From NCBI RefSeq assembly GCF_036203305.1, contig NZ_CP108131.1, positions 3,906,001 to 3,970,000 on the forward strand: a DNA stretch of 64,000 nucleotides. The letters are read 5' to 3'. Origin of the DNA: Streptomyces sp. NBC_00190 (GTDB taxonomy: Bacteria; Actinomycetota; Actinomycetes; Streptomycetales; Streptomycetaceae). Each line of letters starts with the position of its first letter. The stretch's first letter is position 1. Positions 13,885 to 17,009 of the stretch are shown piece by piece. A program made the translations under genes and the position numbers. The notes under the pieces are model-generated. The model saw only the letters and a program-made list of their open reading frames with translations, made no database searches and was not told the origin of the DNA.

Positions 13885-14202
13885 GTGGCGCAGCGCGTAG
13901 TAGTCACGCTCTCCGACGACATCGATGGCGGAGAAGCGGCGGAAACGGTCGTGTTCGCTCTGGACGGTAAGTCGTACGAGATCGACCTCAATGCGGCCAA
14001 CGCAAAGAAACTGCGGAAGGGCCTGGAGCCGTTCGTGGCCGCCGGCCGCCGCCAGTCGCGTTCGGGGAAGGCCTTCAAGCACACGTCCATCGCACCGGAC
14101 CCGGCGGTCGTGCGGGCCTGGGCCCGGTCCAACCAGTACGAGGTCCCGCCCCGCGGCCGCATCCCCAAGAAGATCTACGAGGCCTACAACGCTGCTCACT
14201 GA
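13885..14202 (+). CDS. lsrL: Lsr2-family nucleoid-associated protein (LsrL-like)
   Basis: A 105-residue xenogeneic-silencer type protein. The N-terminal dimerisation domain starts VVVTLSDDIDGGEAAETVVFALDG and the C-terminal DNA-binding domain carries the AT-hook-like PPRGRIPKKI. Such proteins coat AT-rich DNA and silence horizontally acquired and secondary-metabolism genes. Streptomyces usually has two; its position beside purS matches the second paralogue (LsrL) of S. coelicolor as I recall it. The start is GTG with AAGGGA upstream. Confidence 0.88.
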   Translation: MAQRVVVTLSDDIDGGEAAETVVFALDGKSYEIDLNAANAKKLRKGLEPFVAAGRRQSRSGKAFKHTSIAPDPAVVRAWARSNQYEVPPRGRIPKKIYEAYNAAH

Positions 14203-14290
14203 GGGCCGATTTGCCATCCACCCCCCTGCGTCAGCTAGTGTGTGGATCACGCCGAGGGGCCAGGCCGCAGGTCAGAGCCCCGAAGGTCGT

Positions 14291-14362
14291 GCGGGTGTAG
14301 TTCAGTAGTAGAACGTCCCCCTTCCAGGGGGAAGGCGCAGTGTGCGATTCCTGTCACCCGCT
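14291..14362 (+). tRNA. tRNA-Gly(UCC) with non-canonical D-loop and T-arm
   Basis: A 7-bp acceptor GCGGGTG/CACCCGC, D-stem GTTC/GAAC and anticodon stem TCCCC/GGGGA with loop CTTCCAG (anticodon TCC at 14323-14325) are all sound. Two conserved features are missing. The D-loop is AGTAGTA, with AG where GG (18-19) is expected. The T-loop reads TGCGATT instead of TTCGANT, and the T-stem (14337-14354) needs a bulged T to pair. CCA is not encoded. It may be a specialised tRNA (see findings) rather than a pseudogene, because all other stems are intact. Confidence 0.8.
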
Positions 14363-14439: not shown

Positions 14440-14512
<73 letters not shown>

Positions 14513-14522
14513 CCATAAGGAG

Positions 14523-14551
14523 AAGGCCCCGGTCATTACGACCGGGGCCTT
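14523..14551 (+). terminator. Terminator of the tRNA-Gly pair
   Basis: A perfect 12-bp stem (14523-14534 with 14540-14551), a 5-nt ATTAC loop and a following TCTTCG, immediately after the tRNA 3' end. Confidence 0.88.
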
Positions 14552-14600
14552 CTTCGTGTTCCCCCGGTTCTCCCCGGCTTTTGCGGGTTCGGCCCTTCCC

Positions 14601-16936: not shown

Positions 16937-17009
<73 letters not shown>

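Follow-up and report, generated by a model that had tools for sequence, protein, structure and literature searches.

Does a glycine tRNA whose loops and T-stem depart from the usual fold still serve the ribosome, or does it supply glycine elsewhere in the cell? The question is raised by a tRNA-Gly(UCC) gene at 14291..14362 (+ strand) of the window, i.e. the whole 64,000-nt stretch of the Streptomyces sp. NBC_00190 genome that was analysed. An earlier note on this stretch had described the tRNA as having lost the D-loop GG and the T-loop TTC, as staphylococcal non-ribosomal tRNA-Gly have, and as possibly specialised for cross-bridge synthesis in peptidoglycan.

The gene runs over 72 nt to U73, with CCA not encoded. 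Rfam model RF00005 covers 14291-14362 along its entire length (53.2 bits, E 4e-10) and a covariance model, R1, gave 102.8 bits; ARAGORN, run over the window, made no call at 14291..14362. Written by structural element, the body is GCGGGTG TA GTTC AGTAGTA GAAC G TCCCC CTTCCAG GGGGA AGGC GCAG-T-G TGCGATT CCTGT CACCCGC T. Pairing is complete in the acceptor stem (7 bp), the D stem (4 bp) and the anticodon stem (5 bp), which bears out the perfect stems described before. The reported loss of GG from the D-loop (AGTAGTA, 14304..14310, + strand) holds for position 18, where A replaces G, but not for position 19, where G is retained. In the T-arm (GCAG-T-G TGCGATT CCTGT, 14337..14354, + strand), T14341 has to be bulged for the T-stem to pair, as had been seen; the T-loop TGCGATT carries G55 and has indeed lost the TTC signature, although C56, with which G19 usually pairs, is kept, and an A51-U63 pair in the stem had been overlooked. 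Together with A18, these features make up the departures of the window gene from a usual glycine tRNA. Among the 76 RF00005 hits of the genome, TTC stands at 54-56 in 73, GGG in one truncated hit and TGC in two, the window gene and another supernumerary UCC gene. The cloverleaf of the window gene was computed at -24.8 vs. a minimum of -32.2 kcal/mol, and that of the canonical UCC gene at -28.6 vs. -31.4 kcal/mol. The anticodon loop CTTCCAG (14321..14327, + strand) presents UCC. G1-C72, C2-G71, U73, C35 and C36 are the glycine identity elements; all are kept in 40/40 distinct relatives, and the tRNA can be expected to be chargeable with glycine.

We compared the gene by blastn with 150 genomes of the genus, its own included, and found a match in 150/150, the worst best E-value being 1.3e-16. 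Every match spans positions 1-72 among the blastn rows listed, which concern 141 of the 150 genomes, the other 9 being the weakest matches. The 90 blastn hits in the fetched loci correspond to 40 distinct sequences, on which the position counts are based. A51-U63 and the T-stem bulge are present in 40/40 of these, with the bulge shifted by one position in one sequence (L121), and the T-loop TGC and A18 in 38/40 each. The D-loop is AGTAGTA or AGTAGCA in 38/40; G19 is present in 40/40, two of which retain GG at 18-19. The anticodon, U33 and A37 are intact in 40/40, and the first anticodon-stem pair is open in two sequences of this odd tRNA-Gly(UCC) family. Positions 32-38 form C-G in 20 and U-A in 20 of the distinct relatives (9 and 9 in an alignment of 18 sequences). 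We discarded this closed pair as a mark against decoding, since U32-A38 is also found in canonical GCC and CCC genes.

The lost tertiary contact, the bulged T-stem and the ARAGORN miss could all be read as signs of a decaying tRNA pseudogene. Against this stand the deep conservation, the fixed odd positions and the compensatory changes in the stems. In the 18-sequence alignment (21 pairs), both-sided changes occur at 8/21 pairs, and pairing holds in 99.7% of cells. Of five covariation measures, four were reached by 0/500 shuffles, which ignore relatedness; the fifth, on further pair types, was reached by 500/500 and so lies below them. Since the stems vary with compensation while the odd positions stay fixed, the gene is, on the reading of these alignments, conserved under selection and not decaying. 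The structural drift between close relatives that the earlier note had named as the sign of decay does not occur in the 40 distinct sequences. We therefore rule out a pseudogene, which is extremely improbable, and consider the gene almost certainly functional.

The odd tRNA is not the only glycine tRNA able to read GGA. Its own genome holds a canonical tRNA-Gly(UCC) gene at C1:2963930-2964000, in addition to one CCC gene, three GCC genes and a third, UCC-like gene at C1:8283457-8283526. A canonical UCC gene was also found in 18/18 other genomes of the genus that were fetched (out of 44, from the second-best model matches), making 19/19 with its own genome. Thus, the second, canonical isoacceptor that the earlier note had asked about exists, and the odd tRNA is supernumerary rather than the sole reader of GGA. 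Canonical glycine tRNAs also differ from it at 51-63, which is G-C or C-G in 55/55 distinct strings (some of which differ in the ARAGORN-reported tail alone) and in none A51-U63. The latter pair is distinctive among glycine tRNAs only. As a rarity in general it was ruled out, being found in 17/76 tRNA hits of the genome. These were read automatically; the count takes in the third UCC gene, and the bulged window gene was misread.

The gene also has a constant setting. Upstream lies a gene for an Lsr2-like protein of 105 aa (13885..14202, + strand), which we take to be lsrL. A tblastn match to this protein was found at most 700 bases upstream of the odd tRNA in 102/103 rows, to which some genomes contribute two; the sole exception is a second, oppositely oriented copy in L101. 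Tandem copies (two or three) of the odd tRNA occur in 9/103 rows. A promoter-like sequence, TTGCCA-N19-TAGTGT, precedes the tRNA at 14211..14241 (+ strand), and from it the tRNA is probably expressed. Among 34 upstream regions, a loose -10-like pattern is present in 34/34, and 24/34 also have TTG at the distance of a -35 element, the regions without TTG being mainly from outside Streptomyces. The downstream neighbour is a canonical tRNA-Gly(GCC) gene with encoded CCA (14440..14515, + strand, by ARAGORN), followed by a hairpin and T residues that look like a terminator by eye (14523..14554, + strand). This gene and a second GCC gene at 16937 are both normal, as had been noted. A GCC gene lies at most 400 bases downstream in 44/103 rows by a simple pattern, and downstream by ARAGORN in 79/80 named loci, which are the best 80 of at least 471 confirmed stretches. 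In the named loci, ARAGORN calls most relatives with C60 and none seen with T60. Annotation of this tRNA family is therefore likely to be uneven across species, and our description names a gene that the program detects in certain species but misses in others.

Within a sample of 61 genomes of the family, the odd tRNA was found in 10/10 genomes of the genus and in 39/51 others, 35 by blastn and four more by R1. Where R1 scores were seen, members of the tRNA family reached at least 93 bits and canonical glycine tRNAs at most 77. With stricter filters and some incomplete drafts among the genomes, R1 gave a hit above 77 bits in 0/15 genomes of the order outside Streptomycetaceae and in 0/268 genomes of the class outside the genus. 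Among the sampled genomes, the odd tRNA is thus confined to Streptomycetaceae. The 12 genomes of the family without it are those of groups g11 (3/3) and g14 (8/8), with 0/11 having it anywhere in the genome, and G175, which is a draft; G164, from the same genus, does have the tRNA. Compared with Peterkaempfera griseoplana, the Lsr2-like protein of g11 shows 96% identity; that of g14 shows 99% identity to Kitasatospora.

The same limit appears in the 80 named loci, found by using a g14 genome's Lsr2-like protein as query and ranked by similarity to g14, which makes them an uneven sample. Behind lsrL, the odd tRNA occurs in 0/29 loci of the Kitasatospora/Peterkaempfera clade (labelled Kitasatospora in 18 cases, Peterkaempfera in 1 and Streptomyces, with a Kitasatospora-like protein, in 10). 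In these 29 a GCC gene comes directly, and a pair of GCC genes in 27. Of the remaining 51, which include 4 Streptacidiphilus, 2 Actinacidiphila, Wenjunlia and one labelled Streptosporangium, 50 fit the search pattern of the odd tRNA; in the other, L346, a run of N is flanked by two copies. We discarded the idea that mobile elements carry the window gene, as a phage search gave no match and the single plasmid match was an ordinary Paenibacillus tRNA-Gly.

Two genera, g2 and g5, which we take to be Yinghuangia and Embleya and presumably basal, show an intermediate form that has the bulge and A51-U63 with normal G18 and U55. The T-stem change is thus common to all, and the 18-55 change was gained or lost as a pair. 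Of 55 distinct sequences, picked with a pattern in which many other positions are set, 50 combine A18 with G55 and 5 combine G18 with U55. This paired change could reflect a single event in the phylogeny and does not amount to a statistical test.

Glycine is a weak ligand of EF-Tu, so glycine tRNAs need a strong T-stem. The T-stem is the surface gripped by EF-Tu, and the bulge and A51-U63 sit on this contact. Given the weak affinity of glycine and the altered T-stem, the odd tRNA should therefore leave EF-Tu easily, with the 18-55 pair also replaced in most members. Weak binding to EF-Tu and exclusion from translation would then be expected. The gene would provide a glycine-chargeable tRNA additional to the normal tRNA-Gly(UCC), which, kept from the ribosome once charged, would be available to a glycine transferase acting outside translation, with FemX the likeliest. 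This enzyme would add the single Gly to the diaminopimelate (DAP) of the peptidoglycan precursor, as is thought for the dedicated staphylococcal tRNA-Gly.

Staphylococcal non-proteinogenic tRNA-Gly read UCC and have G55. As set out in two reviews (PMC4052509 and PMC9976931), those of S. aureus are marked by A49-U65, A51-U63 and UU or CU at 18-19, and the pairs that bind EF-Tu strongly are G49-U65 and G51-C63. Like the staphylococcal tRNAs described there (PMC4052509), the window tRNA is supernumerary, has lost G18 and has A51-U63 for G51-C63, and it belongs to an organism with tRNA-added glycine in its wall. Unlike them, it keeps G19, has G49-U65 instead of A49-U65, bears an extra T-stem bulge and comes from another phylum. 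Of the two D-loop replacements seen in S. aureus, the window tRNA has that at position 18 and not that at position 19. G49-U65 is found in 35/40 distinct sequences, the window gene among them, and A49-U65 in 5/40; 4/4 named Streptacidiphilus loci have A49-U65 too. Because this one listed feature is absent from the window gene, and weak EF-Tu binding, exclusion from ribosomes and donation to a Fem transferase are predictions for it, membership of the staphylococcal group is not established, although the window tRNA likely works in the way that the staphylococcal ones do. Fem transferases draw their glycine from tRNA that would otherwise go with EF-Tu to the ribosome, and how this diversion comes about is called somewhat unclear in most instances (PMC4052509). 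The question becomes directly testable with a tRNA-Gly that is fixed and distinct in sequence in a genus amenable to genetics; if our reading is true, it would represent convergent EF-Tu-evading tRNAs in a second phylum.

Other unusual tRNAs resemble the window tRNA in part. The Bacillus cereus tRNA-Other is likewise encoded by a tRNA gene outside translation and has a cell-wall phenotype but, as that paper describes it, has a Trp anticodon, is not a glycine tRNA, is poorly charged (Lys) in vitro and is expressed within a larger RNA (PMC3399842). The selC* tRNA-Cys and a minor bacterial tRNA-Sec likewise have a bulged unpaired T-stem nucleotide, whereas their acceptor/T-stem layout is 8/4, and selC* tRNA-Cys is reported to be charged by its own CysRS* (PMC7609411). 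Among the open-licence papers listed in literature searches, none has a title or abstract start that describes this Streptomyces tRNA.

Among the Streptomyces enzymes that use Gly-tRNA for purposes other than translation, FemX is to our knowledge the only near-universal one. The single Gly of S. coelicolor is attached by FemX, and on D-Lac precursors VanK carries out this step (PMC4790382). Co-occurrence does not support FemX as a required partner: FemAB is present in 31/31 Streptomycetales genomes examined, 12 of which are without the odd tRNA, and FemX therefore does not need it. Specialisation for the cross-bridge, as first proposed, is partly supported: the gene is supernumerary, its odd positions do not drift, and it shares A51-U63 and the loss of G18 with S. 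aureus, but these 12 genomes speak against a link with FemX. None of the FemAB genes of its own genome adjoins the odd tRNA. As a separate observation, two g5 genomes (G153:C1 and G178:C15) each have an additional FemAB gene at a distance of about 20 kb from the odd tRNA.

A link with LL-DAP was also considered. Kitasatospora is reported to have meso-DAP as well as LL-DAP (PMC8236941, PMC7601586), which at first sight fits the loss of the odd tRNA. This simple link is weakened by three sets of reports. In Kitasatospora viridifaciens mycelium, muropeptides are described as mostly Gly-bearing, with Gly on DAP (PMC8092295); the absence of the odd tRNA was recorded in other Kitasatospora genomes and loci, this species not being among them. 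Two species now placed in Peterkaempfera (PMC12689991) are reported with LL-DAP (PMC7601586), yet their clade is without the odd tRNA. For Streptacidiphilus, which retains it (4 named loci), one report gives meso- and LL-DAP as in Kitasatospora (PMC6113628) and the other LL-DAP (PMC7601586). In view of these results and of FemAB in genomes without the tRNA, the odd tRNA would be at most an insulating supply of wall glycine rather than a requirement for it.

We weighed this role against two others. The tRNA could take a real but minor part in translation, as a UCC isoacceptor of unusual build whose reading of GGA is slow or limited to particular conditions; its intact anticodon, U33, A37 and identity elements, and the retention of G18 and U55 in g2 and g5, would suit such a function. 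However, a canonical UCC gene accompanies it in every one of the 19 genus genomes, the Kitasatospora/Peterkaempfera clade manages without it, and its bulge and A51-U63 fall on the EF-Tu contact. We find this reading unlikely and consider it probable that the window tRNA is mainly non-ribosomal.

The tRNA could also have another client, either as glycine donor for a different transferase or as an uncharged or processed regulatory RNA. Its phyletic profile, which departs from that of FemX and, strictly, from that of LL-DAP, points in this direction. The known alternative clients of Gly-tRNA belong to scattered pathways, whereas the odd tRNA is near universal in the genus, and no transferase stands out by eye among the window genes around it. 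Precedents are described: Orf11 and DhpK are Streptomyces users of Gly-tRNA besides FemX (PMC12945691), and the Bacillus cereus non-translational tRNA has cell-wall effects (PMC3399842). Such a client seems rather doubtful, if slightly less so than translation. By analogy with staphylococci, donation of glycine to FemX is our leading candidate role, on which our judgement is evenly divided.

Two further supernumerary tRNA-Gly(UCC) types came to light, and A51-U63 is common to both and to the window gene. In the UCC-like gene of 70 nt at C1:8283457-8283526, the T-stem is paired and contains A51-U63, position 55 is G, position 37 is a pyrimidine, and the glycine identity elements are present. 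This type was found in 76/150 genomes of the genus at E-values of at most 1e-3, each genome having between one and six matches at mostly unrelated places, in 1/51 family genomes outside the genus, and on 66 plasmid records from Streptomyces, of which many come from S. clavuligerus strains; none was found on phages. In 20 loci compared with the copy of the window's genome (examples are L051, L245 and L265), similarity is confined to the tRNA plus at most about 60 bases in front of it. Behind the gene, a different terminator-like hairpin was seen by eye in each locus, bar one that ends at a contig edge. No partner gene recurs in the 20 loci except in sets that look orthologous, and none was seen by eye in 3 plasmid regions with gene tables. 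The second type is an identical 73-nt tRNA-Gly(UCC) with C33 and A51-U63 in 3/3 genomes of g11 (L230, L370 and L371), which are Peterkaempfera-like and without the window gene. Its flanks look promoter-like and terminator-like by eye, and the other 58 genomes of that search held nothing above 82% identity.

These types hint that glycine tRNAs unsuited to the ribosome may have evolved repeatedly. It is a tentative possibility that Streptomycetaceae evolved ribosome-avoiding tRNA-Gly(UCC) at least three times, as the lsrL-linked gene, the nomadic 70-nt stand-alone unit of chromosomes and plasmids and the C33 version of g11, and that these form an EF-Tu-insulated pool of glycine for the wall and perhaps secondary metabolism.

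Other RF00005 hits of the genome are also atypical. A 119-nt hit at C1:3458238-3458356 has a long insertion and no ARAGORN type. Moreover, four low-scoring tRNA-like genes at C1:3792786, 7715528, 7469805 and 366417, typed by ARAGORN as Trp, Cys, Asp and Met, have a common D-arm type, GTAGCGCAGaGGTcGTCGCg.
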